A DNA stretch of 33,019 nucleotides. Source: Acidovorax sp. GW101-3H11. Its GTDB lineage: Bacteria > Pseudomonadota > Gammaproteobacteria > Burkholderiales > Burkholderiaceae_C. The notes below the pieces were generated by a model. The model saw only the letters and a list, made by a program, of their open reading frames with translations. It did not search any database and was not told where the DNA came from. Position numbers and translations under genes: made by a program. Where the stretch lies: positions 334,681 through 367,699 of the forward strand of contig NZ_LUKZ01000009.1 in the NCBI RefSeq assembly GCF_001633105.1. Direction: 5' to 3'. Shown here in pieces: positions 259 through 26,687 of the stretch (positions are counted from its first letter, which is position 1; the number at the start of each line of letters is the position of its first letter).

Positions 259-3200
259 TCAGTCGTCGTTCGGCTTGACCTCGATGGTCGCCACGCTGGG
301 CGCCCCCAAGGCCAGGTCCACGGCCAGGGCTGCTGGCGTGGTGTCTTCCACCACCACCGTCTGCGATGCGCCGCCGCCCGCAGGCCCGTTGCTGTCGAGC
401 GTGACGGTGGTGTCGCCTGCGACGGCCGCGGGGGGCAGGCTGGCCAGCAGGTCGCCACCATCGTCCGCCAGCAGGTCGGCCACCTCGATCTTGTCGCCCT
501 CGGCCAGGTCCTTGACGACATCCTTGTCGGTGCCGCCGGGGGTGCTGTCCGCCAGGTTGATCTTGATCGTGTCGTCGCCATCCCCGCCAGTGAGTGTGTC
601 GCTGCCTTTCCCGCCCACCAGGGTATCGTTCCCCTTGCCGCCGTCCAGCGTGTCGTTGCCTGCCTGGCCGTCGAGCTTGTCATCGCCATCGCCGCCCTTG
701 ACCACGTCATCGCCCTTGCCAGCCTGCACAGTGTCGTGGCCAGCACTGCCCACAATGGTCTCGGAAGCATCGCCACCCTTGATGGCCAGGCCGCCCTTGG
801 CGGGATCGGACAGGTCCACCTTGTCACCATCGAGCGTAGTGTTGGTATCAATCACCACCTTCACGTCGATGGGTTCGGCCAGCTTGTCACCATCGCCATC
901 CACCACCACCGCCTGGAAGTTGATCCACACCTGGTCGGCGTAGACCGGCGTAATGACCGGGGGCTTGGTCACGGTTTCGGTGTAGGTCAAGGTCATGGCG
1001 TCCGTCACGCGGTACTCCGTCCCGTCCTTGGCCGCGAACTGCACCGTGTTGAAGGTCGTCGTGCCGCTGGGGTCCACGCCGACGGGTGTTTCCACGCTGG
1101 CGTTCCCGCTGTTCGTGTTGTTGCCCGAGGTCGTCCCCTGGATGTCCATCGGCGACCCCACAGGCGTGGTCGTGTTGGCTGCAGTGACGACGGCGGTTTC
1201 CTTCTTGCCCAGGTGGTCCAGCTCGAAGCCCGCAGAGGTCACAGCCAGCCGGGTTCCATCGGCCTTGAAGAACTCGATGACCAGCCGCTCCCCGGCGCCA
1301 TCCCCTTCCTTGATGGCATCGGACTGGGAGTCTTCCTCTTCGCCCACGGAACTCTTGTTGCCGATGTAGTTGTCTCCCACACCAAAGCCCCCACCACCGT
1401 TGCCGCCGCCCGTGGACGACCAGTTGACGTCCTCGCCGCTGGTCGAAGGGCCAAAGGTGGTGTCGTCTTTCTTCACCTCCCAATCACCATCCCGCTGCCG
1501 CTCGACCTCGTTGACGATGGTCTTATCCTTCTCGGCGGAAATCTGCATGTAAACGCCCGTGGCGGAATCCACATACCGCGCCGCGTCCTCCTTGCCCCCA
1601 GAAGACGACTGGGTGTAGTTGTCGGGCTTGTACACCTTGTCCTGCGTGCTGTTGCCAAAGGTCACCGTCTTGGACACCGTTGTTGTGCCACCAGGAACTT
1701 CCGTGACTCCCACCTGCACCTTGTCAGCCACGGCCACCATGTTGGTGACATAGCTCGTGGTGCCATCGGCGTTCACCACGCCTTCCACCGTGAAGGCCGT
1801 CTTGATCTCCCCGCAGTCTTCGTACACCGCCTTGATGGTGCCGTCGGAGGTGGCCTGGTAATACACCTTGTTGCCATCCACCGTCATCACCGTGGACTGC
1901 ACCGAGCCCCCTTGCATGTAAGACAGGGACACATAGCGCAGCGACGAGCCGCCCACGGACTCCGTCGTGGTGGCGGCCATGTTCACGTCCGCCCCCACCA
2001 CATCGGCACCGACGCGGGCACCCAGGTCGGCGACGACCTCGCCCACACCGCTGTTGGCGACCAGCGTGTCCTGCGTGCCTCCTACGTAGACCGGCGCATC
2101 GTCCTGGATCTTGATGTTGAAGCCCTGCACTTCGGTCTCGCCGCCCTCGGTCTTGTTGGCCACCAGTTGCAGGTACAGGTTTTCTTCGCCGCTTTCGGTG
2201 TAGGCGTGGTCCACCTGGCCCTTCAGCTCCAGCTTGTACTGGCCGCTGTCGTCAATGGTGGCCACGGCCACCGTGCGCACATCTGCGCCCGCCCCCGCCA
2301 CACCCGTCAGCGTCTTGCCATCGCCCGACACCGTCCAGCGCACCTCGTCGCCGGCAGAGGTGATCTTCTGCACCGGCACCCCCAGCGTGTAGGTGGCGCC
2401 GCCCATGCCCAGCGTGCCTGTGGTGTCGGTGGTGTGCGGGCTGCTGTCCACATTGCCTGTGGCCAGGCCGTCTTCGTAGACCATACCCAGGCCCTGGGTA
2501 CTCAGCTCATGGCCCGTGTCGATGGTCAGCGTGGCACTGTCGGTGTCGCCATCGCCGTCCTTCATCTGGTAGCTGAACTGGTCCTTGGAGCCGGTCTCCA
2601 CATACTCTTCAAAGCTGACGGCCTTCACAAAATAATCTGAGCTGTCGCTGCCTTTGTCGCCCGCCAGGTAGTCCACGCCAGAGAACACCACGTTCTGGAA
2701 GGCAATCGGGTGGCCATCGGCACCCAGCACCTCGATCTCGACCTGGCCCTGGTGCACAGGGTCGCTGCCGTTCGCGCCGTTCTGGAACAGCGAACCGCCG
2801 ATCATCCCCTCGCCCACCTTGTTGCCTGCGGCGTCGAAAGCCTCCCAGCGGCCGGTTTCGCCGTTGTTGCCCGTCTGGCCCGATTCGTTCTGGAACAGGT
2901 TGGAGATGTCCACCACCGCCCGCACCGCCATCTTGCCCAGGTCCACCGACAGGGCTTCCGTACCCTGGGAGGGCGAATACCCCACCTGCTCGGGCGTGCT
3001 CGCCCCCACGTCGCCCGGCACGGGCTCGGTCGGGTCGTCCACCCCCGCGCCGTTGCCCTGGCTGGTGACCACGGCACCGCCGGTCTGCGCCGGGCTGGGG
3101 TTGGTGATGAGCTGCTCGCCCAGGTTCGTGGTGTAGGGCTTGCCGTAGTCGAAGGCATCGGTCCCGGCAGGCACTGCCACCCCACCACCCAGCTGGATGG

Positions 3201-6200
3201 TCGTCTGGTGGCCGGTGTAGGTGTAGTCCCCGTCGGATTCCATGGTGAGCGTGCCGTACTGGCCCGCCACTGTGGCGCTGCCGCCGCTGGCGACAGCCGT
3301 GCCGGGGGGCCACACCGCACCTTCGGCACCGGCGCGCACCTGGACCACCTCTGCCTTGGCGCCGTCCTGCATGCCTTCGTGCTGGTCTTTTCCGGCCAGG
3401 CCCGAGGTGGTGCCCACACCGGTCAGCACGTTGCCTGTGGCCTCCAAACGGTCCACAACCCACTGCGTGCCATCGGTATCGTCCAAAGCCACCGGGCCAT
3501 CATCGGCAATGAACAGCATCCGGCCCACGTCGATGCTGGCATCGACCTTATCGCCATCGCCGTCAACGGCGGTGAGCTGCAGGCCAATCTTGCCCGCCAT
3601 GCCCGCTTGCACTTCGTTCGAGTCGCCCGGTGTGGAATGCACCACCGTGCGCTGCTGGTCGAAGGTCACCTCGCCCGTGGCAGCATCGATGGACAGCGTG
3701 AAGACGGTTTTCTGCACACCATCCACCACCACAAAGCCAATCACCGAGCCGCCGGGGCCGCTCTTGAGCAGCACATCCGAGGGCTGGCCGTTGGAGTAGA
3801 GCGCGGTATCGCGGAAGCCCGAAGAGCTGCCTTCACCGCCATTGAGCACCAGGCCGTACACCTTGCTGTTCAGCGTGGCGGCACCGTCTGCCCCATAGCT
3901 CACTGTGAAGCGTGTGGACCCGAGATCGGACTCCGCATCGACATCCAGGAAGCTGTCGTCCACCAGCAGCGGCATGGAGACATTGAGCATGACGTCGTTG
4001 TAGTCACCGTCACCGCCACCGTAGATATCTTCCCAGTTCTGATTGCCCGTGACGGAGCCCACGGCCACCGTGTTCACATGCGACAGGCCGTCGAGATTCA
4101 AATTGCTGTTGTCGAACAACGCGGGTGCCCCCTGGCCCGAGAGCGGAGAGCCTCCCACGTTCGCCACCCATTGGCCGTTACCATCCTTGGTGAAGCTCAC
4201 CGGGGTGTTGTTGCCCAGCGCGCCATTGAGGCTGTCGCCATTGGGAATCATGAAGAAGCCGACCTGGCCAGGCAACACGCCGGGCGGCAGGGTGACGCTG
4301 GTCACCGGCTGGTTCTTCACGTTGTCCCAGACCACCATGCCGGCAGTGGGCTCGCCACTGCCATTCTTGATGTAGTAGCCCCAGGTGTTGTTGTACCCGG
4401 CGTCACTGCCCACCAGTTGCACCGTGATGCCTGGAACGGGGTCGGGATCCACCGTGGTGATGACGGGGATGTCGTCCTTGACGCTAACACCCAGCTCCAC
4501 ACCGATGGAGTCGCCATCGCGGTCTTCGCCCACGATCTGCACGCGGCCCAGGTTCAGCGTGTCCTCGCCCTGCGCCGAGTGGGTCAGTGCACCGGTCACC
4601 GTGAGCGTGTATTCACCGTTAGCCTTGACCTCCAGCACGGCAGCCGCTCCCGTCGCGCCGGTTTGCGCCTGGCCCGCTGCATTGAAATACACCTTGCCGC
4701 CGGAAACACCATCCACGGCCACGGTGACGCCACCAAACTGCACACCCGTGACCTTGCCGAAGCCATCCGCACCCCAGCTGACAGCCCCGGTCATGACGCG
4801 CACGCCGGTGGATGCCTCCAGCTGGGCTCCGTTGACGAGATCGCTGGCATCGCGTTCGTCGTTGCCGATCTTCGCGCCATCGCGCATGGCAGATTCTTCC
4901 TCCAGCATCGCCGTCAGCACCACGGCCTGAGAGGTTCCCTCCACCAGCTTCGCAACGGGTGCATCGTCCTCCAGCGAGACCTTGAGGGCCATGGAGTCGG
5001 TAAGGCCGGTGGCCGGGTTGGCGGGCCGGTCGTTGGCGATGACGGTGAAGTTCAGCTCCTTCACGTCGCCGTCGGTGCTCGTCCCAGCGGCCGGGCGGGC
5101 GTGATCGACCGGGCCCAGCAGAACAACATTGCTGGTGTAGCCACTGTCGTAGCTGCCGCCAATGGTCACCTTGATGATGGCGGTGTCGCCCACCTTGCCC
5201 ACGAGTTCGGTGCCAGCGGCATTGGGCACCCACTGGATGGCCACACCGCCGGAGGTCAGCACAGGCAAGGGGCCCGTGGTGTCAAAGCGCACCGACACGG
5301 TGTCGCCGATGTCCGGGTCCGCCACGCCAAAACTGGCGGAGTCCGTGGTGCTCTGGCCGGGGTTCTCGCGGTTGCCCTGCGCCAGGGCGTCTTCCTGCAC
5401 GCTCACGGCAATCTGGTCAGCGTTCGCCCCGGAGTAGCGCGACACTTCGCCTTCGTCCTTGTTGCCATCGCCGTCCTTGTCGATCCATATCTGGGTCGTC
5501 TGGTCGTTGCCGGTCACGAACTCGGGCGCATCGTTGACGCCTTGTACCGTCACGCGCACGTTGGCCACATCGGTGTCGCCGTCTGCGTCCTTCATCTGGT
5601 AGTTGAACTGGTCGGTCAGCGTGGCCCCGGCGCCCAGGGCCATGGCCTTGAGGTTGTCGAGGGTGTAGGACACGGTACCGTCGGTCGTGATCTTGAGCGC
5701 ACCCATGGTGCCCGTGGCATCCAGCGACGGGCCGGTGAGATCGGTGGTGTCGTACGACCGGTCGCCTCCAGAGCGTGTGAACACCACACTGGCAGTGCCG
5801 CCGTCGGCCTTGGCCTCATAGGCATCGTTGCTGAGCACGCTGCCCAGCGCATGGCTTGTGGTGCCCGTGGCACCGGCTGTGGCCACCAGGTTGCGGGCAT
5901 CGTCCGCAGCCACGGGCCCGGTGTCCTGGAAGTTGATCTGCCGACCAATGTCGTAAGTGGCCACGTTGGACTTGTCGCCATCGCCGTCCTTGGCCTGCGC
6001 CGTCAGCTGGATCACGCCACCGCCGATGTTGACGATCTCGTGCGGATCGTTGGTGGGGTGCACCACCGCACGGAACTGCTCCACCGTCACCTGGCCGTTG
6101 TTGGCCGCATCGCCGGCCACCGTGACCTTGAACACATTGGTCTGGACACCACCGATGAGGATGTAGCCCACGGCTGCGCCGCCCTCCATCTTCACCAGCA

Positions 6201-9200
6201 CGGTAGAACCCGTTGCGGTGTCCTTCAGGGCAGATGCCTGCCCCTGGGCACCCACGCTCAGGCCAAACGTCTTGCTGCCCGTGGCAGCAGCGCCGTCCGC
6301 CCCGAAGCTGAACTGGAAGCTGCCCGAAAGCGCCTTGCCGTCCGTGTCAGAGCTGGTGCCTGCATCGGCCTCGGCATCCTTCACCAGCAGCGGCACGTTC
6401 CAGTTCAGGTTCAGGTTGACGTCGTCATAGTCCTTGTCCGAACTGGTGGAAGTGATCTTGAGGTCTTCCCAGTTGAAGTTGCCCTTGCTGCCCTGGCCGG
6501 CCGAGGTTCCGGAGGGAGTCTGCTGCACATGCGACTGGCCGTCGCTGTTGAGCCGCTGGTCCGAGAAATAGACCGGCGCGCCGTCGCCCGACAGGGCAAC
6601 GCCTCCTACAAAGGCCGTCCACTTTCCGTTGACCTGCTGGAAGGACACGGCCTGCGTATCTCCCAGTGTGCCGTTGCGGCCGTCCCCGTTGGGAATGATG
6701 AAGAAACCGATCTGGTCCGCCGTGACCCCTGTGGGCAGCGACACCGCCGCATTGCCCTCGGTCTTGACGTTGTCCCAGAGCACCATGCCGCCTTTGGAGG
6801 TGTCGATCGTACCGTCGGGATTCTTGAAGTAGTAGCCGAAGCTGTTGTTGTAGCCCGCCTCGCCGCCTTTGTACTCGACCGTGAAACCATGTGCCGCCAC
6901 AGGCACGGCTTCGGACACCGTCACGATGGGTACATCGTCCTTGATCGATGCATTGAGTTCCACGCCGATGGTGTCGCCATCGCCGTCCTGGCCCATGAAC
7001 ATGATTCTGGGCAGGTTCAGCAGATCCTCGCCCTGCGAGGAGTGCTTGAGTGCCGACAGCACCTGGAACTGGTAGGCCCCGGTTTCTGCATTCACCGTCA
7101 GCACAGCGGCGCCGCTGGTGGCCCCTGCCGCCAGCGCCTTGCCGTTCTGGTCGAAGTACACCGTCACCACGCCGCTCACCGGGCTGTAACTGTTTTCGGT
7201 CAAGAACCCGGTCTGCACCTTGATGCCCGTGAGGCCGCCGAACTGGTCAGCCCCCCACTTCACCGCGCCCTGGAAGCCCGTGGCGTCGGACTTCACGTAG
7301 CTCAGGTCAGGGTTCTCGGTTTCGTTGTTGCCCAGCGTGCCGCCGCCCGACACGGGCACCGACTCTTCTTCCACCAGGACACTGAGCTTGACAACCTTGC
7401 CGTCCACCTTGGCGTGCTCGGGCACGTCATCCTGGATCTTGGCGTACAGGTCCACCCCGATGCGGTCACCGTCGCCGTCCACCCCCACGAAAGTCACCGT
7501 GGGCAGCAGCAGCAGGTTTTCGCCCCAGCCCGCCTCGTGGTTCAGAGGTCCGATCACCGTCAGGCTGTAACCGCCGGAAGCTCCGTCGATCTCCAGCGCC
7601 ACGGAGCGAGGCGTTGTGGTGTCGCCATCGGCAATGGGCTGGCCGTCGCGGTCCAGGTACACCGTGGCGCCTGCATTGCCCACGGCATATTCCTGGCCCG
7701 CAATCCGCACCGCCACCACACCACCAAACTGGTCAGCCCCCCAGCGCACGACACCGGTCATGGACTGGTTGCCGGTGGAGGCGCTCAGCGGGTCAAAGAA
7801 CCCGGTTTCATTGTTGCCAATCACGCCGCCATCGCCGTTCGATGCGGACTCTTCTTCCAGCAGCGCAAGCAGTGGCACAGGAACGCCCAGCACCTTCACG
7901 TGCACCGGGACATCGTCCTGCACCCGGGTCTCCAGGGCCACGGTGATGGGGTCGCCGTCGCCGTCTTCGCCCATCAGGCGCACGGTTTCAAGGTTGAGCC
8001 AATCTTCGCCCTGCACCACGGTCCCACCGGCCGCATGGTTCATGGTGGCCAGCACGGTCAGGGTGTAGCTGCCCGAGGCTTCCACCAGCAAGCTGGCTGC
8101 AGCACCCTCGGGCCGGGCACCACCGGGGCCCGAAGGAATCACGGAGCCATCGGCGCCAAACCAGACGGTCTGGCCGACCGGTACCACGCTGGCACCTTCG
8201 CCGCTGCCCACACGCACGCCGGTGAGCTGGCCGAAACCATCGGCACCCCAGTTGATGGCGCCATTGATCTGGGTGAGCCCACCATTGGCCGTGGAGGTGA
8301 GCGGCAGGTCGTTCTCGTCGTTGCCGATCTTGCTGCCATCGACGCGCACGGACTCTTCCTCGGCGTCCAGCGACAGGCTGGGCTCCAGCCCTGCTTGCAG
8401 GTACTGGTTTTCACCGCCCTCTTCGGGCCATTCTTCCCCGTCGTTGCCGTAGCGATAGACCGGCACGTCGTCGCCAAACAGCAGCCGCCCACCCAGGTCC
8501 AGCGCGGCCATCACGGTGTCGTCGTCGTTGTCCGTGGCGGCCAGCACCACGGAAAGCACGCCCTTGCCAATGGCCTGCAGCTCGTCCTGCCCGCCTTCCA
8601 CGCCGTCGGGCGTGGCATGGCGAATGGCGCCCGTCTGGGTCATGACCACAGCACCCGTCTGCGGATCCATCTGCAGCGTGAGGATCACATTGCCACTGCC
8701 GTCGCGCCCCACCACTTCGCCGGGGTTGCCGGTGGCGCTGAGCATGATCTCGGTGTTGGTGCCGGTGGCATACAGTCCCGTCGCGCCGCCGTTGCCGATC
8801 TGGAAGGCAAAAGCGTAGCCATCGGGCGTCTTCTCTCCCTCACCCTCACTGCCTCCGCCAGGACGCAGCTTGGGACCATCGGCGCCAAAGGACACCACAA
8901 ACGCCGTGCCGTTGAAGGTGTTGCTGTCGGTGTCCGCGTCGGGCCCTTGTGGGTTGTTTTCGGTTCCTTCGGCGCCGGTGTTGGTGGCCTGGTTCACGCC
9001 ACGGTCCGAGGTCATGAGCGTGGGGATGCCTTCGGTGCTGGAATCGATCACGGGGATGTCGTCCTGCACGGACATGCCCACCTCGGCCGTGAACGCCCCA
9101 CCTTCGCCCGTGAAACCATTGATGGTCACCGTGGGCAGGAACAGCATGTTCTCTGCAGGCAGGTCTGGGCCGCTTGCATGCTGCAGCGGACCGACCACCG

Positions 9201-10161
9201 TCAGCGTATAGCTACCGCTGGAGGTGATGACCAGCAGGACCGCCGGGGGCGTCGGATCGCCCTGCGGTACGGGTTGGCCCAAGGCATTGAAGTAGATGGT
9301 CACGCCTTCTGTCGTGACAGGCACAGGCGCAAAGCCCGGCACGCTGATGGAAAAAATGCTGCCACCGCCCAAGTCGAACGTCCCTTGCTGGTAGCTGTAG
9401 AGGCCTTCGTCCTCATCATTGCCAATCACACCGTTCACACTGCGGCTACCGCGACCAGAGGGAACAGACTCTTCTTCGAGTGTGATGTTCAGGTTCACCC
9501 GCACCGGCTCGGGCGATGGGGGAGGGGGAGGAGGCGACACAGGTGGAGGGCCGGGTGGGGGAGGTGCAGGTGGTGGGGGGGGTGCAGGCACCGGAGGATT
9601 TGGGGCTGGTGGCGGAGCGGGAGGCACGGGCGTGGGGGCCGGTGCGGGCGCAGGCGCCGGTGCGGGCGTATCGAGCGCCAGTACCGCCAGCGGATTCACA
9701 TCGATGTCCGGCGACGACTGGGGCGTGAAGCTGTACAGATAGGCCAGAGGGTCCACCCCCTCGAAGATGCGCAGCAGCTGCACAAAGCTGCTGCCCTCGC
9801 CTTCACCACCACCGCCGCCACCCAGGCCGGCCGCCGTGGCTTCCAGCTGGTCGCTCAGGTCGCCGCCACGCTCCAGCGCCTGGATCACGGTGTCGATGGT
9901 CCCCTGGGCCACGCTGGCATCCTGCGCCGTGGGGCGCTCGGCGGTCTGCGTAACACTTTCGTCGAGCTTGATGTTCTGCTCGGGCGCCACGGCCAGCACC
10001 TTGCCGTCGTCCATCAGCAGCTCCACCCTGGAGCCCGCCGGGGTCTGGACCACCTCCCCTTTTTGCAGAATGTCCCCCGCTTTGAGGGCGCGGCGATTGC
10101 CATTGGCATCGACCGCAAAGGCTGTGCCGGTCACGGCAACGACGGTGGCGATTTGAGACAT
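259..10161 (-). CDS. Giant RTX adhesin with LapA-type retention module
   Basis: This 3300-residue protein looks like a type I secreted biofilm adhesin held in the outer membrane. Residues 1-145 resemble the LapA retention module, with a TAAG motif at 109-112, the dialanine site cut by the periplasmic protease LapG in that family. A Pro/Ala-rich linker follows at about 164-221. At least five modules contain an EEES motif (near 227, 600, 769, 932 and 1754), each ending in a DDVP or DDIP motif, as in T1SS-143/DUF5801 repeats. Two DUF4114-like modules (about 1097-1254 and 1917-2064) contain YNN and DYNDV/DYDDV motifs. A VCBS-like stretch lies near 1414-1560. RTX nonapeptides (GGxGxD type) occupy about 3127-3199, before an acidic/hydrophobic C-terminal secretion signal. 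The ATG has a GGAG ribosome binding site 7 nt upstream. Exporter genes lie upstream on the same strand. The ligand is unknown. Confidence 0.93.
9633..9670 (-). repeat. (Ala-Pro)n coding repeat in adhesin linker
   Basis: A six-base-period, GC-only repeat encodes alternating Ala-Pro residues at the start of the proline-rich linker. Changes in repeat number would stay in frame and alter linker length only. Confidence 0.6.
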
Positions 10162-10306
10162 GAGAATGCTCCGGTGAACCAGAAACCTCTGCGCTTTTTT
10201 GCCCAGAAGAACGGCATGTGACTGATAGCTGTGAAGGCTACCGACAGGGCCTCTGGCTCACCATTGGACTTAGGTCCACTTTTGTGGGTCTGGCACCCCA
10301 AAGGTC
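10162..10306 (-). other. Adhesin leader / intergenic region
   Basis: These 145 nt separate the small upstream gene from the adhesin start. On the minus strand they hold a small hairpin (TGGAC-CTAA-GTCCA) and the GGAG ribosome binding site. I see no convincing sigma-70 promoter, terminator or c-di-GMP riboswitch. A weak similarity to the TAGCTATCA repeat family is present around 10217-10250. The adhesin could be co-transcribed with the upstream genes or have its own promoter here. Confidence 0.5.
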
Positions 10307-10552
10307 TCAAATTGTTTCGTTGCCCGAATCGTCTCCCAATAGATCCAGGCTATTGCTGAGCCGCGCCCGGGTCTCCTTGCGCTCCAGCAATTTGTTCTGC
10401 GCCGCCAACGGCAGGTCTGTAAAGCGGATGACGCCCCGGGCGATCAGCAGCTCGATCAGGTCTTCCGTGACCCGGGCCAGCCCCGCGTCCGAAGAACTCA
10501 AAAGATGGGTGTCTTTGGGGTGGGTGTCTTTGTCAGGCATGGCCATTGGCAC
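10307..10552 (-). CDS. Small conserved protein of unknown function in adhesin operon
   Basis: This is an 81-codon gene with a GTG at 10552; in-frame ATGs at 10546 and 10540 are alternative starts. It overlaps the end of the regulator gene by about 20 nt or less, suggesting translational coupling. The core reads RVTEDLIELLIARGVIRFTD followed by LPLAAQNKLLERK, predicted to be helical and without a membrane segment or signal peptide. From memory it resembles short proteins often labelled 'tryptophan synthase subunit beta-like' in Pseudomonas, a label with no known functional basis. Its place between the regulator and the adhesin suggests a role in that locus, which is inference. Confidence 0.75.
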   Translation of the reverse strand: MPMAMPDKDTHPKDTHLLSSSDAGLARVTEDLIELLIARGVIRFTDLPLAAQNKLLERKETRARLSNSLDLLGDDSGNETI

Positions 10553-11177
10553 CGTGGTTGAGACGCAGCACCAGCTGCACGCGGTCCCGCACCTGGAGTT
10601 TTTCGAAGGTGGCGCCCAGGTGGGCCTTCACCGTCCGCTCCGAAATGAAAAGTTTCTCGGCAATCTCCTTGTTGGAGAGCCCCCGGGCCACAGCCTGGGC
10701 CACCTCCAGCTCGCGCGAAGACAACAGTTGCTGCAGATCCTCCTGCCCTTGCGCCGGGGTCTGAGACGCCGTCAGACTCCAGGTGGCCGCTGCCAGCCGG
10801 GCCACCAGCGCAGGCCCGACCCACAGTCCCCCATGCTGCACGACCACTGCCACCTCCTGCAGCATTTCAGGGACTGCGAAGAGATGGCAGTAGGCGCGCG
10901 CGCCTTCGTTGATGGCGCGCAGCCCCTCGCGGTCCTCCGGCACTCCGGACACCACCACCACCCGGGCCGCAGGCGCCTGCGCCAGCACCGTGCGCAGCAA
11001 CTCCGGCCAATCGGAATACTCCGTGCTCAGCCACACGGCCGCAGGTGCGGCGTCTGCCTTCTGCAAGGCATCTACCAGGGCGGGCCGGTCGGCTTTGCCA
11101 AAACGGGCTCCCTGCGGGAAAGCCATCCACCAGCGGTCGGATGGCTGCACAGCGTCGCTGGCCAGAAAGTGGCGCAT
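10533..11177 (-). CDS. LuxR-type response regulator with degenerate receiver
   Basis: Residues about 151-207 form a GerE/LuxR helix-turn-helix (SSRELEVAQAVARGLSNKEI, then ERTVKAHL), so the protein should bind DNA. The N-terminal half has the length and hydrophobic strands of a receiver domain. However, the strand where the phospho-accepting Asp should sit reads AAVWLSTE, and the usual Lys region reads GARAYCHLF, so canonical phosphorylation appears lost. I prefer the ATG at 11177 because GGAGAGG lies 8 nt upstream; a GTG at 11186 that overlaps the exporter stop codon (GTGA) is the alternative. It lies between the exporter genes and the adhesin on the same strand, and so probably controls them (inference). 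Confidence 0.87.
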   Translation of the reverse strand: MRHFLASDAVQPSDRWWMAFPQGARFGKADRPALVDALQKADAAPAAVWLSTEYSDWPELLRTVLAQAPAARVVVVSGVPEDREGLRAINEGARAYCHLFAVPEMLQEVAVVVQHGGLWVGPALVARLAAATWSLTASQTPAQGQEDLQQLLSSRELEVAQAVARGLSNKEIAEKLFISERTVKAHLGATFEKLQVRDRVQLVLRLNHGANGHA

Positions 11178-11182
11178 GGGTT

Positions 11183-12598
11183 TCACCTCTCCGACAAGGC
11201 ATTGGCCTTGGCTCGCAACACAGGCTTGAGGAGGTAGGCCAGCACGGTCTTCTTGCCTGTGAGGATGTCCACCTGCGCCACCATGCCAGGGATGATGGGC
11301 AGGTTGGGCCCCAGGCTGGCCTTGCGCGTGCGCACACGCACCAGGTAGTTGGCGTTGCCCTTTTCATCGACCACGGAGTCGGCGCTGATGTTCACCACCT
11401 CGGCCACCAGCCCGCCATAGATGGAGAAGTCGTAGGCCGTGAACTTGACCATCGCCTCCTGGCCGGGATGCAAAAAGGCGATGTCGCGCGGGCTCACCTG
11501 TGCCTCCAGGATCAGTGCATCGTCCGAGGGAACGATCTCCACCACCTCCTTGCCCGGCTGCACCACCCCGCCCACGGTGTTGACCAGAAGGCGTTTAACC
11601 GTGCCACGCACGGGCGAGCGGATGTCGGCATGCTTGACCTTGTCGGCCAGCGCGCGCCCGCCCTCCGACATGCTGGAGAGCTTGCTCATGGTCTCCGACA
11701 GCTCGGAACTCATCTGGTTGCGCGCCGTGAGCTGCACCTCCTCGATGCGCCGGGTGGCCTCCTGGATGGCCGCCTGGACCCTGGAAATCTGCGCATCCGC
11801 CTGCTCGCGGTCCCCGCGCAGCCGCGCCACCTCGCGGTCCAGCCTCAGCACCTCCACCTCGGAGACAGCGCCCGTGGCCACCATGGGTTTGGTGGCATTG
11901 AGTTCCTTCAGCATCAGCTCCAGCCCGCGCTCGGCCTGCTCCTTGCGCGCGCGCACCTCGTTGAGTTCCTGCTGCCGCTGCATCAGCTGGTTCTGCGAAA
12001 TGGACACCTGGGCACTGATCTCCTCGCGCCGCGATCGGTACAGGCGCATCTCCTGCGCCACGATGTCCGGCGCGTCCCGCAGCAGCTCGGGCGGCGGGAG
12101 GAAGCTGCCCCCCTGCGTCAGCGCCTGCAGACGCAAGGCCTTGGCCTGCAGGGCCAGCAGGCTGGCCCTGCTTTCAAGCATGGTGGACAGGAACCGGGTG
12201 GAGTCCACACGCAGCAGCAGCTGGCCGGCCTCCACAAGCTGCCCCTCGCGCACGGGCAGCTCTTCCACAATGCCACCGTCCACGCTCTGGATCACCTGCA
12301 CCTGGCTGGTGGGCACCACCTTGCCATCGCCGCGCGTCACCTCGTCCAGCTCGGCATACGCGGCCCAGAGCACCAGCAGCAACAAGAAGAGAACCGCCAG
12401 CCGCAGCAGTGCGCGGGCGCGCAGGGGCTCCTGCTGCAGGCGCGCCCAGTCGGCATCATCCGCCCAGTCCAGCGACTCGGCAGTCCCTGCGGGCGTGAGC
12501 CGCTTGACCATGTGGCCGAAGACCGAGTCGCTGGCCGCCCCGCCCGTCTTGACGGCGCGCCCGATCTGCTCGAAGGCTTTCTCGTTGAGTTCGGCCAT
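11183..12598 (-). CDS. Type I secretion membrane-fusion protein (HlyD/LapC-like)
   Basis: This 471-residue periplasmic adaptor would link the inner-membrane ABC exporter to a TolC-like pore. A cytoplasmic N-terminal tail is followed by one membrane helix at about 62-82, a first lipoyl-like half at about 103-132 (IQSVDGGIVEELPV), a long coiled-coil-rich hairpin through about residue 340, and the second lipoyl half (VRGTVKRLLV, GGVVQPGKEVVEIVP). Length and order match HlyD-family adaptors of RTX adhesin systems. Its ATG at 12598 starts one base after the stop codon of the exporter gene, so the two are probably co-translated. The outer-membrane partner is not encoded in this window. Confidence 0.93.
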   Translation of the reverse strand: MAELNEKAFEQIGRAVKTGGAASDSVFGHMVKRLTPAGTAESLDWADDADWARLQQEPLRARALLRLAVLFLLLLVLWAAYAELDEVTRGDGKVVPTSQVQVIQSVDGGIVEELPVREGQLVEAGQLLLRVDSTRFLSTMLESRASLLALQAKALRLQALTQGGSFLPPPELLRDAPDIVAQEMRLYRSRREEISAQVSISQNQLMQRQQELNEVRARKEQAERGLELMLKELNATKPMVATGAVSEVEVLRLDREVARLRGDREQADAQISRVQAAIQEATRRIEEVQLTARNQMSSELSETMSKLSSMSEGGRALADKVKHADIRSPVRGTVKRLLVNTVGGVVQPGKEVVEIVPSDDALILEAQVSPRDIAFLHPGQEAMVKFTAYDFSIYGGLVAEVVNISADSVVDEKGNANYLVRVRTRKASLGPNLPIIPGMVAQVDILTGKKTVLAYLLKPVLRAKANALSER

Positions 12599-12599
12599 G

Positions 12600-14762
12600 T
12601 CACACCGCCTTTCCGATGCGACCTTGCCGCAGGGCCTGCACCACCTGCTCCTTGGGGCCGTCGGCCACCACGCGGCCCGCGTCCATCACGATGATGCGGT
12701 CCACCAGCGCCAGCAGCGATGTGCGGTGGCTGATGAGCACCAGGGTGCGGCCCTGGGAGAAATCGGCCAGGCGGCGCTTGATGTCTTCTTCGCTCGAATG
12801 GTCCATGGACGAGGTGGGCTCGTCCAGCAGCAGCACGGCCGGGTCGTTGATCACGGCGCGCGCAATCGAGACCCCCTGGCGCTGCCCCCCGGACAGCGAC
12901 TCCCCGCGCTCCCCCACCAACATGTCGAAGCCCTGCGGGTGGGCATTGATCAGGGGCAGGATGCCCCCGATCTCGGCGGCGCGCACCACCGAGGCGTCAT
13001 CCGCCAGCGGTGCGCCCAGCGTGATGTTGTCGCGCAGCGAGCCATAGAACAGCATCACGTCCTGCTGCACGTAGCCCATCTGCCGCCGCAGCTCGGCAGG
13101 GTCCAGCTGGCGCAGGTCGATCCCGTCGATGAGCACCGCCCCCGATGTGGGCCGGTACAGCCCCAGGATCAGCTTCTGCAGCGTGGTCTTGCCCGAGCCG
13201 ATGCGCCCCAGGATGGCCACACGCTCCCCAGGCTTGATGTTCAGCGTGACATTGCGCAGCGACGCCGACTGCTGGCCCGGGTAGGTGAAGCTCACGTCGC
13301 GGAATTCGATGCCGCCCTGCAGCCGCCCCCGGCTGATGAAATTCGCGCCCTCGGGCCTGTCCACCTCGCGCTTCATCATTTCATTCAGCGAGGTCAGCGC
13401 GGTGGAGGCCGTGTGGTACTGCACCAGCAGCCCCGCCACCTGCCCCACCGGCGCCATGGCGCGCGAGGCCAGCATGGTGCAGGCGATCAGGCCGCCCATG
13501 GTCAGCTGCCGCTCGCCAATCATGTACACACCCAGGATCACGATCACCAGGTTGATGAGCTGCTGCAGAAAGGCCGAGCTGTTGCTGGCCGTGGCCGAGA
13601 GCAGGCGCAGCTGCACGCCCACGCGCGCCAGCAGCGCCGTGCTGCGCTCCCACTTGCGCTGCAGCGGCGCCTCGGCGCCCAGCGCCTTCACGGTCTCGAA
13701 GCCCACCAGCGCCTCGACCAGCGTGGCATTGCGCTGTGCCCCGGCGCGGTAGGTGGTTTCAGACAACTCGTGCATGCGCCCCTGCACCGCCAGGGCATAC
13801 AGCAGCATCACCAGGGCCCCGACGAGCAGCGGAATCAGCATGGGCCAGGAGATCCAGCCAATCACCACGACAAAAATCAGCGCAAAGGGCAGGTCGATGA
13901 ACGCCACCACCGAGGCCGAGCTGATGAAATCCCGCACCGACTCGAAAGACCGCAGGTTCGACGCGAACGAGCCCGCCGACGCAGGCCGCTGCTCCATGCG
14001 CGTGCCCAGCACCTTTTCCATGATGTGGGCTGACAGCTTCACGTCCGCACGGCTGCTGGCCAGGTCCACAAAACGCCCCCGCAGGGTGCGCAGCACCAGG
14101 TCACCCACCAGCATGATGGACAGCCCCAGCGCCAGCACCCACAGGGTGTCCACCGCGTTGTTGGGCACCACGCGGTCGTACACATTCATGGTGAAGATGG
14201 GCATGCCCAGCGCGAACAGGTTGGCCAGCAGCGCGGCCAGCAGCACGTCGCGGTACAGGCCATGGTTTTCTGCCAGCACCGACCAGAACCAGTGCCCATG
14301 CCGCCCGGCTTTCACCTGCGGCGCCCGCGCGTCAAACCGCTGGGATGGGCGCACGTACACCGTGGTACCCAGGTAGTCCGCCTCCAGCGCGGCGCACGAC
14401 ACCTGGATGGGGGCATCGCCCAGCTCGGGCAACACCACCAGCGCCTCGCTGCGGTCCTCGCTCCAGCCCAGCAGCACGCAGGCACGGTCGCCCTGCAGCA
14501 GCAACACCGCAGGCAACAAAACATCCTTGACCCGCGCCAGGGGCTCGCGCACCAGGCGGCTGCTCATGTGCGCCCGGCGCGCAGCGCGCGCAAACAGGCT
14601 GGGCGTGAGCCGGTGGTTGTCAGCGGGCAGGCCTGCCATCACCGCCTCGGCGGTGGACGGCAGGCCGTGGGCCTTGGCCACGATGAGCAGGCACGACAAC
14701 AACTCGTCGGGACTGCCCCCTGCAAGCTCTGCAGGCGGTGCCACACCTGCATTTGAAACCAT
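12600..14762 (-). CDS. Type I secretion ABC exporter (LapB-like)
   Basis: This inner-membrane exporter, about 720 residues long, would drive secretion of the adhesin. The first ~130 residues resemble a C39-peptidase-like domain. They lack the catalytic DCG cysteine and the HxVV histidine, so this is a non-proteolytic docking domain. About six membrane helices follow (about 150-440). The ATPase domain has Walker A GRIGSGKTT near 518, signature LSGGQRQ near 621 and Walker B VLLLDEPTSSMD near 641. I chose the ATG at 14762 because AAGGA lies 6 nt upstream; an in-frame GTG at 14795 has weaker support. It is the first gene of the adhesin operon and diverges from the AraC-type gene. Confidence 0.94.
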   Translation of the reverse strand: MVSNAGVAPPAELAGGSPDELLSCLLIVAKAHGLPSTAEAVMAGLPADNHRLTPSLFARAARRAHMSSRLVREPLARVKDVLLPAVLLLQGDRACVLLGWSEDRSEALVVLPELGDAPIQVSCAALEADYLGTTVYVRPSQRFDARAPQVKAGRHGHWFWSVLAENHGLYRDVLLAALLANLFALGMPIFTMNVYDRVVPNNAVDTLWVLALGLSIMLVGDLVLRTLRGRFVDLASSRADVKLSAHIMEKVLGTRMEQRPASAGSFASNLRSFESVRDFISSASVVAFIDLPFALIFVVVIGWISWPMLIPLLVGALVMLLYALAVQGRMHELSETTYRAGAQRNATLVEALVGFETVKALGAEAPLQRKWERSTALLARVGVQLRLLSATASNSSAFLQQLINLVIVILGVYMIGERQLTMGGLIACTMLASRAMAPVGQVAGLLVQYHTASTALTSLNEMMKREVDRPEGANFISRGRLQGGIEFRDVSFTYPGQQSASLRNVTLNIKPGERVAILGRIGSGKTTLQKLILGLYRPTSGAVLIDGIDLRQLDPAELRRQMGYVQQDVMLFYGSLRDNITLGAPLADDASVVRAAEIGGILPLINAHPQGFDMLVGERGESLSGGQRQGVSIARAVINDPAVLLLDEPTSSMDHSSEEDIKRRLADFSQGRTLVLISHRTSLLALVDRIIVMDAGRVVADGPKEQVVQALRQGRIGKAV

Positions 14763-14916
14763 ATGAATTCCTTGTTGCTTAATGTTCGAATTCACTCTAG
14801 CAACATAAATTCAAACCGCGAAGCACTAAATGGCAGCCTCGGGAACACCCGCCCCGGCCGCGCCCCTCTGGAGCCTGGCCGCCGGTTGCAGCAAAATCCG
14901 GGATCGGACCGCCCCC
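14763..14916. promoter_or_regulatory. Divergent intergenic region, exporter operon / AraC gene
   Basis: The AT-rich part (about 14763-14830) upstream of the exporter operon stands out against the GC-rich surroundings and is the likely promoter region for the minus-strand adhesin operon. I could not identify a convincing -35/-10 pair on either strand. The rest, before the AraC-type start, is GC-rich with no visible feature. Confidence 0.4.
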
Positions 14917-24878: not shown

Positions 24879-24937
24879 GCTTTTTCGGGCCTTTGCGCGC
24901 ATCCCATAAGCCCTGATAGCTATCATTTTGATAGTTC
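24871..24937 (+). repeat. Dispersed intergenic repeat, copy D
   Basis: TTTCTTGAGCTTTTTCGGGC, then TTTGCGCGCATCC, and CCTGATAGCTATCATTTTG followed by ATAG align with copy A. The 12-bp palindrome TGATAGCTATCA is perfect at 24914-24925. The repeat overlaps the stop codon of the GNAT gene and ends just before the retron a1 arm. No other feature is seen up to 24952. Confidence 0.75.
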
Positions 24938-24952
24938 ACATAGAATCACAGC

Positions 24953-25101
24953 GGCCTGGTGCCAAGCATGTCGAGCCTGCACAGGTTCGGGCCATGGGGC
25001 AGCCCCACGGTGTTCTCCTCATACGCCCACATTGGGGCGCGCGAACCAGCCGCCACCGGTGGCAAACAGTTCGCGCCCAACCCGCTGGTTGGTACCAGGC
25101 C
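24953..25101 (+). ncRNA. Putative retron msr-msd RNA
   Basis: GGCCTGGTGCCAA (24953-24965, a1) pairs with TTGGTACCAGGCC (25089-25101, a2) over 13 bp with one G-U pair. The base after a1 is G24966, in an AGC context, as required for the branching guanosine of retron RNAs. The 123 nt inside hold two msr-like hairpins: CGAGCCT-GCAC-AGGTTCG (24972-24989), and one centred on TGGGG-CAG-CCCCA (24995-25007). They also hold one long msd-like hairpin (25032-25080) with arms TTGGG..CGCGAAC and GTTCGCG-CCCAA, capped by GCCA-CCGG-TGGC. The RT start codon follows 24 nt after a2. The layout matches known retrons; production of msDNA is a prediction. Confidence 0.8.
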
Positions 25102-25124
25102 AACCTCTTTCTGAACGCCGTGCC

Positions 25125-26687
25125 GTGACGCTGTCGGCCCCCATCCGCGCCCTGGCCAGGGCCTTGGCACTGGCCCTGCTGGCCGATGCGGACAGCCCCG
25201 AGCGCCGCAGCCTGCGCGCACTGGCGGCCCGGGCCGGGCACTGCCTGGGCCATGCCGCCCCGGAGCCCGGAAACCCACCTTTGCCCGAGGTGCTCTTCGA
25301 GCAGCTGCGCCGCCTGTCCACGGTGTCCACCGCCGAATGGGTCCGGCTGGAACCCGAAGACCTCGCCACCTGGCTGTGCCGGGGTTTCTGGTGGCGCAAG
25401 GCCGGGGTGCGCAACGGCACCGCGCCCTGGCCGTTGCAAGATGACGGGGAACTGATCACCGAAGACGATGACGGCGACGGCGACGACCCCTCCGCCACGC
25501 CGTGGCACCTGCGGACCGACGCCCAGCTTGCCCAGAGCTTCCGCACCTGGGCGGCCAGCCCCCGCACGCGCGGGCCCTTGCACTGGCTGCTGCGCCCGGG
25601 CACGGCAGGCCCGGCACCCGCCTGGATGGGGCGTGCCCCGCAGTGCTCCGCCCCCGTGCTGGCCACGGCACAGGACCTGGTCCAGCTGCTGGGCGTTCCC
25701 CTGGAGGATCTGCTGTGGCTGGCGCCCGACCATGCCCACTGGCGCGAACCCCAGGGCGGTTGCGCCCTGCCCGCATCGCACTACCGCTATCGCCTGCTGC
25801 CCAAACCCAGCGGCGGCCTGCGCCTGCTGGAGGCCCCGCGCCCGCGCCTGGCAACCGCCCAGCGCCGCATTCTGGACCGCCTGCTGGCAGACATCCCCGT
25901 CCACGAGGCCGCGCACGGCTTTGTGCGGGGCCGCAGTGTGGGGAGCCATGCGCAGGCGCACACCCGGCAGGCGGTGGTGGTCCGTTTTGATCTGGCCGAC
26001 TTTTTCACCCACATCAACGCCACGCGGGTGCGGACGCTGTGGCGCGCGCTGGGGCATGGCCGCCCAGCGGCCGAGCTGCTCACGCGCCTGACCACCACGC
26101 GCACCCCTGCGCCTGTCCGCGAACGCCTGTGGGAAGGCAGCGCACCGACCTCGGCGCAGACGATTGTGCAGCGCCGCACCACCCACGCCCGCCTGGCGCA
26201 GCTCCATCTGCCCCAGGGGGCACCCACTTCACCCGCTCTGGCGAATCTGTGCGCGTTCGGGCTGGACTTGCGGCTGCATGCGCTGGCGCAGCGCTTTGGC
26301 GCACGCTACACGCGGTATGCGGATGACTTGGTGTTTTCAGGCCCGCAGAACCTGCAGGGCCAGTTTGGCGCGCTGCGCGCCTGGGTCGGCGCCATCGCGC
26401 AGGACGAGGGTTTTGCACTGCGCGGTGACAAAACCCGGCTGATGCCCGCGCACCGGCGCCAGTCCGTCACGGGGCTGGTGGTCAACCAGCGCCCCAACTA
26501 CAGCCGTGAGCAGTTCGACATCCTGAAGGCCCGGCTGCACCGGCTGGCGCGCCTGCCCGGGGTGGATGTGGCCGAACGCGCGCGCCTGGAGGGAGAAATC
26601 CACTGGGCTGGCCAGTGGCTGGCACCGACGCGCAAGGAGAAGCTCCAGCGGCTGTTCGGTGCCATCCGATTCACGGACGCGCCTTAG
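25125..26687 (+). CDS. Retron-type reverse transcriptase with long N-terminal extension
   Basis: This 520-residue RT uses a GTG start at 25125; no clear ribosome binding site is seen, and longer in-frame starts would run into the RNA element. Catalytic aspartates are D289 in FDLADFF and D400-D401 in YADD (398-401). Other RT motifs are SGGLRLLEAPRPRL, HGFVRGRS (264 on), and LPQGAPTSPALANL (362 on). The HAQAH after GRSVGS matches the retron NAxxH region with Asn changed to His, and VTGLVVN (448 on) matches the retron VTG motif. The first ~190 residues are an extension beyond ordinary retron RTs (about 300-350 residues), with an acidic patch TEDDDGDGDD near 113-122. No partner effector gene follows; the next gene is convergent. 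Confidence 0.9.
   Translation: MTLSAPIRALARALALALLADADSPERRSLRALAARAGHCLGHAAPEPGNPPLPEVLFEQLRRLSTVSTAEWVRLEPEDLATWLCRGFWWRKAGVRNGTAPWPLQDDGELITEDDDGDGDDPSATPWHLRTDAQLAQSFRTWAASPRTRGPLHWLLRPGTAGPAPAWMGRAPQCSAPVLATAQDLVQLLGVPLEDLLWLAPDHAHWREPQGGCALPASHYRYRLLPKPSGGLRLLEAPRPRLATAQRRILDRLLADIPVHEAAHGFVRGRSVGSHAQAHTRQAVVVRFDLADFFTHINATRVRTLWRALGHGRPAAELLTRLTTTRTPAPVRERLWEGSAPTSAQTIVQRRTTHARLAQLHLPQGAPTSPALANLCAFGLDLRLHALAQRFGARYTRYADDLVFSGPQNLQGQFGALRAWVGAIAQDEGFALRGDKTRLMPAHRRQSVTGLVVNQRPNYSREQFDILKARLHRLARLPGVDVAERARLEGEIHWAGQWLAPTRKEKLQRLFGAIRFTDAP

Follow-up and report, generated by a model that had tools for sequence, protein, structure and literature searches.

The 33,019-nucleotide stretch of Acidovorax sp. 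GW101-3H11 DNA analyzed here (the window) carries, at positions 24953 to 26687, a reverse transcriptase (RT) gene with a structured RNA upstream of it. We read this segment, with a probability of about 0.9, as a chromosomal retron in which an a1-msr-msd-a2 RNA precedes its own RT, and whose predicted product is an RNA-linked multicopy single-stranded DNA (msDNA) of approximately 60 to 75 nucleotides. Its upstream neighbor is a GNAT acetyltransferase gene, and downstream lie a convergent gene of the Redoxin family (prx) and then S10 operon genes for ribosomal proteins. On the forward strand, the RNA begins with the left arm of an inverted repeat (a1, 24953-24965) and the predicted priming (branching) guanosine directly 3' of it (G24966). 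These are followed by two msr stem-loops (24972-24989 and 24991-25011), a long msd hairpin (25039-25076), a conserved sequence that closes the msd template (ACCCGCTGG, 25080-25088), and the right arm of the repeat (a2, 25089-25101). The RT gene (25125-26687, forward strand) encodes 520 amino acids and starts with a GTG located 23 nucleotides 3' of a2. A mechanically called open reading frame opens at TTG 25032, within the RNA, but relatives begin near the GTG, which is therefore the most likely start.

A first-pass annotation made from the DNA letters had already called this segment a retron, starting from a 13-base-pair (bp) repeat with one G-U pair and 123 enclosed nucleotides. The arms indeed pair in this manner, enclosing positions 24966 to 25088. 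The RNA and its immediate flanks (24945-25110) have a folding energy of -82.4 kcal/mol (z = -4.49), and none of 200 shuffled sequences folds as well. The single-sequence fold contains a first short hairpin (24972-24989) and a long hairpin (25039-25076). The first of these does not resolve in the consensus structure of the family. In the middle of the RNA, the hairpin conserved across the family lies at 24991-25011, has a GGGG-loop-CCCC form, and carries one A-C mismatch in the window copy.

The annotation had also suggested aligning the RNA region with that of RT homologs to look for compensatory changes. A family search gave RT matches at 50 places in 43 of 399 genomes, and the best 30 of these places were made into loci. 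Two of the remaining 20 were inspected, one being a type XIII retron (G219, locus L073) and the other the second piece of G283, which falls inside locus L021/L055. Our alignment, A2, comprises the window and 29 loci drawn from this search and from a scan of GTDB contigs, after dropping L005 as a repeat of L002 and leaving out L032 and L033. The repeat upstream of the RT is retained in all 30 aligned loci and shows compensatory changes, and the two omitted loci are matched by the RNA model R1 (36 bits for L032 and 35 bits for L033). Paired cells make up 93.2% of A2 compared with 75.2% in shuffles. Both sides have changed in 22 of 31 pairs, including 10 of 12 in helix 1 (a1 with a2) and 7 of 8 in helix 3 (the msd hairpin). 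Double-change cells number 171, versus 54.6 ± 5.9 in shuffles and 39 to 61 when partner columns are slid. The a1 and a2 arms change in concert between genera, and helix 2 (the GGGG-loop-CCCC hairpin) is paired in 98.1% of its cells across the 30 loci.

Several short sequence features are also conserved. The branching G is invariant in A2, whose rows were anchored on it, and it is preceded by C(A/G)A in 30/30 loci. Beyond A2 there are exceptions: TGA precedes the G in Tsukamurella and Dietzia, and a1 ends otherwise in L032, L033, L069, and L070. The annotation was right to place G24966 after the left arm, where the window reads CCAAGC. Its proposed AGC context was rejected as a conserved rule, given that C follows the G in only 16/30 loci. 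At the other end of the msd, alignment columns A132, C133, C134, and G136 are invariant beside a2. A -10-like hexamer common to 30/30 loci ends 19 to 26 nucleotides before the branching G, compared to 230 of 6,000 random windows of equal size. In the window this predicted -10 box is TAGAAT (24941-24946, forward strand). It ends 7 nucleotides upstream of the start of a1, placing the predicted transcript start at a1 itself. The conserved order is thus the hexamer, a1 ending in C(A/G)A, the G, a variable stem-loop, the GGGG-loop-CCCC hairpin, a variable stretch, the msd hairpin, ACCnGCnGG or a similar sequence, and a2.

We also used R1 to search 399 genomes of the order independently of the RT, a search that was underpowered with 7 candidates scored per genome. 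Six genomes were found including the organism's own, and the other five, from other families, all carry this RT downstream. Further RNA matches were seen in Burkholderia plasmid loci (50 to 56 bits), L069 and L070 (28 bits), and Dietzia (24.5 bits). R1 gave no match in Tsukamurella, where a 16-bp repeat ends 13 nucleotides upstream of the RT, and none in L071-L073. Its best score in the Methylobacterium locus L088 was 6.3 bits, which is not a match worth counting. A hit in L079, a type III-A-like locus (16.4 bits, E = 0.061), was taken as chance. By these sequence matches, the retron RNA appears in Pseudomonadota and, weakly, in Actinomycetota.

The RT itself has the motifs YADD, LPQGAPTSP, and VTG that the annotation had listed, whereas its NAxxH-like region X is kept as HAQAH, with the first N replaced by H. 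YADD is present in all 115 aligned RT proteins, VTG in 82 and ITG in 28, and at least 67 have HAxxH in region X. Within the RT domain, the ratio of nonsynonymous to synonymous substitution rates is 0.14 to 0.18, and the RT is under purifying selection. RVT_1 is the only Pfam domain found, with no fused effector domain. When the AlphaFold2 model of the RT was compared with known structures using Foldseek, ranks 1 to 18 were all retron RTs. The model for group II intron maturases scored 44.5 bits against a cut-off of 300. The AlphaFold2 models also show a helical N-terminal extension (residues 1-150; 25125-25574, forward strand) with an acidic, low-confidence linker. Foldseek returned no PDB or viral fold match for this part at E ≤ 0.001.

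The best PADLOC models for the RT are RT_other (PDLC02949, 373 bits) and RT_outgroup (PDLC03740, 357 bits). Their alignments cover residues 151-518 and 171-515, respectively, leaving the longer N-terminal part outside. The same two models score the Myxococcus xanthus protein P0238 (554 and 523 bits) and the RT of L069 (442 and 422 bits), and the PADLOC table attaches no type or effector to either name. RT_XIII ranks third at 280 bits, well below RT_other, although type XIII RTs share the N-terminal extension. On RT_XIII, the type XIII proteins of L071 and L073 reach 600 and 592 bits, respectively, and they form a group apart from the window RT. As separate observations on these two loci, their RTs (L071:1102-2931 and L073:1066-3117, 610 and 684 amino acids) end in hydrophobic, membrane-like stretches and are preceded by a 12- to 16-bp inverted repeat, with an RNA longer than that of the window.

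A phylogenetic placement of the RT, likewise suggested in the annotation, puts it with retrons. Loss of the upstream repeat in RT homologs and a placement outside retrons had both been named there as refuting the call, and on both points the outcome favors it. The tree was built from 44 RT domains after two very long rows had been removed from a first version, and for an outgroup it has a single group II intron RT and an unclassified one. With so small an outgroup, the tree is informative on the clade more than on the root. The window RT falls in a 24-row clade with support of 100/98, and types XIII, III-A, I-C, and I-A lie outside it. Members of the clade come from Burkholderiales, another class of Pseudomonadota (L069 and L070), Tsukamurella, Dietzia, Rhodococcus, M. 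xanthus, Pyxidicoccus, Labilithrix, and a metagenome-assembled genome of Pirellulaceae. By RT sequence, the clade spans at least four phyla (Pseudomonadota, Actinomycetota, Myxococcota, and Planctomycetota), the myxococcotal and planctomycetotal members being known from proteins alone. A scan of GTDB contigs with the single RT protein found only three close loci. Among viral contigs, 46 stretches with a pattern match included none encoding an RT relative, and none of 13 phage and 79 plasmid records contained 80% of the query at a single place.

In build, the element resembles the myxobacterial retrons. According to one study, these have an RT N-terminal extension of unknown function and are inherited vertically (PMC6868368). 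From such descriptions, Retron-Mxa2 (Mx65), Mx162, Sa163, and Ne144 share the extended N terminus with the window RT. In the same study, the RT of Mx65 has the N of NAXXH substituted, as in the HAQAH of the window, and keeps VTG (PMC6868368). The myxobacterial branch context is given as GAGC or CAGC, compared with CAAGC here. The Mx65 RT has 427 amino acids by the coordinates in a second paper (PMC8934634), versus 520 in the window, and the two are likened by description rather than through the Mx65 sequence. M. xanthus P0238, which lies within the window RT clade, has LAG instead of VTG. It was considered as the RT of Mx65 and ruled out, with 442 amino acids and LAG rather than the 427 amino acids and VTG reported for Mx65.

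By function and build, the element is a retron, and by its RT it belongs to the untyped RT_other/RT_outgroup group of PADLOC. The annotation's word "undescribed" holds at most for the locus and its RNA, as the RT is within existing PADLOC models. In the literature, as far as its accessible portions go, we found no paper on the locus or on an Acidovorax retron and no description of the RNA of this lineage. An earlier account of the clade in key classification papers is possible.

The element is chromosomal and occupies a defined site. The Acidovorax sp. GW101-3H11 genome (5.44 Mb) has a single copy of the RT, and the gene order GNAT, retron, prx, and ribosomal genes is identical in loci L002-L006. 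A relative of the RT (91-92%) was found on a contig of Acidovorax kalamii. Locus L021/L055, from another genus, has the same chromosomal site and an intact RNA, with an RT lacking a match to codons 275-438. Among 40 genomes of the genus, 38 have prx, and an RT adjoins it in 10; in one of these (G1156) a frame break appears to split the RT. Another three genomes have only distant RTs elsewhere. Such RTs, with 31 to 42% identity and located elsewhere in the genome, were noted in G1151, G1163, G1164, and G1169.

Among 30 fetched prx loci, 10 have the RT, 1 has a relic, and 19 have neither. The relic (L097:1198-1429) is at the same site and consists of a shortened RNA (22 bits) followed directly by RT codons 483-520. 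In 17 of the 19 empty loci the gap between GNAT and prx was read, and it measures 75 to 96 nucleotides in 14 and 59, 142, and 229 nucleotides in the others. When R1 was run on 18 of the empty loci, no RNA reached E ≤ 1. These data fit either an element that is old at the site with repeated loss or one gain with frequent loss. As a separate matter, many empty gaps (L099-L121) share, by eye, a palindrome like GCTATnnATTnAATAGC. The window has a similar one immediately to the left of its retron, at about 24914-24935. Such a palindrome is possibly a terminator.

Retrons have been described as an RT, an RNA, and a toxic effector that together form anti-phage systems, with the particle paired with a toxin that phage attack releases (PMC12548924). 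The annotation had likewise assumed phage defense, a role that no constant effector gene in the compared loci supports. We compared open frames of at least 80 amino acids in 28 loci, namely 27 stretches of 13 kb and the window. Among the matches listed, no gene other than the RT and frames overlapping it has a fixed place in unrelated loci. The other shared genes among these matches are confined to pairs of close loci, to the site that the window itself has, or to sets of three to six loci (one cluster of six and several of three), with scattered places and strands. Ten close downstream genes on the same strand were collected from the 28 loci. Four have no Pfam name, and six are named as a short-chain dehydrogenase, GST, AdoHcy hydrolase, porin, aminotransferase, and GTP cyclohydrolase II. 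By these comparisons, the element shows no constant or fused effector such as the typed tripartite retrons (types I-XIII) have. Retron-Eco1 (Ec86) is reported to have been solved with a separate effector, whereas none was found here, and Retron-Eco2 (Ec67)-type RTs have a fused Toprim domain, as the name of the PADLOC I-C model indicates, that the window RT lacks. There is a precedent in Retron-Bth1, which is reported to make RT-DNA without an apparent effector (PMC12548924). On its own, we note a HAD hydrolase-like gene 28 nucleotides after the Tsukamurella RT on the same strand (L087:4995-5603), which is a possible lineage-specific partner.

Across the family, then, there is a conserved RNA with compensatory changes, a constant -10-like box, a retron-type RT, and no fixed gene but the RT. 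RNA covariation, the RNA-model search, the RT tree, and the fold matches all bear out the retron assignment. In such an element, transcription would start from a1, and G24966 would likely provide the 2'-OH from which the RT primes, giving a 2'-5' branch. It would then copy the msd hairpin into RNA-linked DNA, with the cDNA starting opposite 25088, and the RT and RNA would form an msDNA-RNA-protein particle. From this anatomy, the predicted msDNA (25013-25088, reverse strand) would be about 59 nucleotides long if synthesis stops just past the 25039-25076 hairpin and 76 nucleotides long if it stops at 25013, its 3' end being uncertain.

A number of points weigh against this interpretation. The window is GC-rich and contains three 13-bp repeats that have no more than one G-U pair and enclose 90 to 220 nucleotides. 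A repeat of this strength can arise by chance, so that on its own it is little proof, and the retron call is convincing because the RNA is conserved and covaries. Concerning that covariation, homology of the RT decided which rows entered A2, and the a1/a2 ends were placed by eye with C(A/G)A-G and the start of a2 as anchors. This favors and partly imposes the innermost pairs, but not the remaining ones. The middle of the window's best fold pairs 25002-25038 instead of forming the conserved GGGG hairpin, and the predicted msDNA hairpin, folded as DNA (-16.8 kcal/mol), has a z of only -1.25 relative to shuffles. Searches of Rfam at the gathering cut-off and at E ≤ 10 gave no relevant family for the RNA. 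The msDNA, the transcript, and the branch are predictions, and the functional half of the reading we infer without an effector gene. With no such gene at a fixed place, phage defense is unproven. Finally, the relic, the frame-broken copy, and the many empty sites indicate that the element is dispensable.

Those last signs could also mean that the retron of Acidovorax sp. GW101-3H11 is decaying and no longer makes msDNA, and its single copy and the partial RT of L021/L055 in another genus would agree with this. We assign decay only a small chance, since the window RT frame runs uninterrupted for 520 codons, has YADD and VTG intact, and shows low substitution ratios, and the window RNA keeps every pair of helix 1 and all but one of helix 2. 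A system resembling the defense-associated reverse transcriptases (DRTs) would use the upstream RNA as a template or scaffold, prime on protein or nothing, and make no branched msDNA. DRT2 and DRT9 do pair an RT with a noncoding RNA and no effector gene, as described in the literature, and their chains appear among the fold matches at ranks 24 and 25, behind the block of retron RTs. This proposal is very improbable given the profile scores (Drt2, 39.8 bits against a cut-off of 390; Drt3a, 16.6 against 200, both NCBIfam) and an RNA whose parts follow the retron order, whose a1/a2 helix covaries, and whose a1 is immediately followed by a G. Still harder to credit is that the RNA acts in cis on the RT gene, as a leader or attenuator, in place of serving as an msr-msd template. 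The RNA is structured and immediately upstream of the start codon, as a leader would be, but retron parts that are conserved in order and covary, with arms changing in concert between genera, are not what such a leader would call for.

A different kind of alternative keeps the molecule and changes its use. The msDNA could serve a role other than defense, for example in regulation or in titrating a DNA-binding protein. The absence of a constant neighboring effector and the fixed chromosomal site beside the S10 operon in the genus are compatible with this, as is a report that msDNA directs intestinal colonization by enteric pathogens (PMC4569332). We consider such a role unlikely, although well worth keeping in mind, because the element is patchy in the genus (10 of the 30 fetched loci), resembling a defense or mobile trait, and because retrons are described as anti-phage systems (PMC12548924). 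As the most likely function, with about even odds, the RT-msDNA particle would act as a stand-alone phage sensor, with the N-terminal helical domain of the RT or a host protein encoded elsewhere replacing the neighboring effector. More tentatively, with the odds somewhat against it, the lineage may represent a phylum-spanning class of stand-alone, two-part retrons in which the helical N-terminal domain takes the place of the effector, so that RNA and RT would be the complete phage-response particle. In such a class, the RNA plan would combine a promoter set at a1 with a branch site of purine-rich -A-G type, an msr hairpin of GGGG-loop-CCCC form, and an msd end of ACCnGCnGG or like sequence.

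Because this large lineage combines a long RT and a conserved RNA without any constant neighbor, the puzzle of the RT N-terminal extension becomes simply testable. The test system is small, with two parts in about 1.75 kb, and the genus offers both carrier species and relatives with empty sites. Likewise, R1 provides a means to find such retrons where effector-based typing fails.

Elsewhere in the window, a frame of 3,300 amino acids on the reverse strand (259-14795) contains DUF5801, DUF4114, and RTX calcium-binding repeats and adjoins HlyD and ABC-transporter genes. The region resembles a gene for a large adhesin of the type I secretion pathway, accompanied by its exporter.
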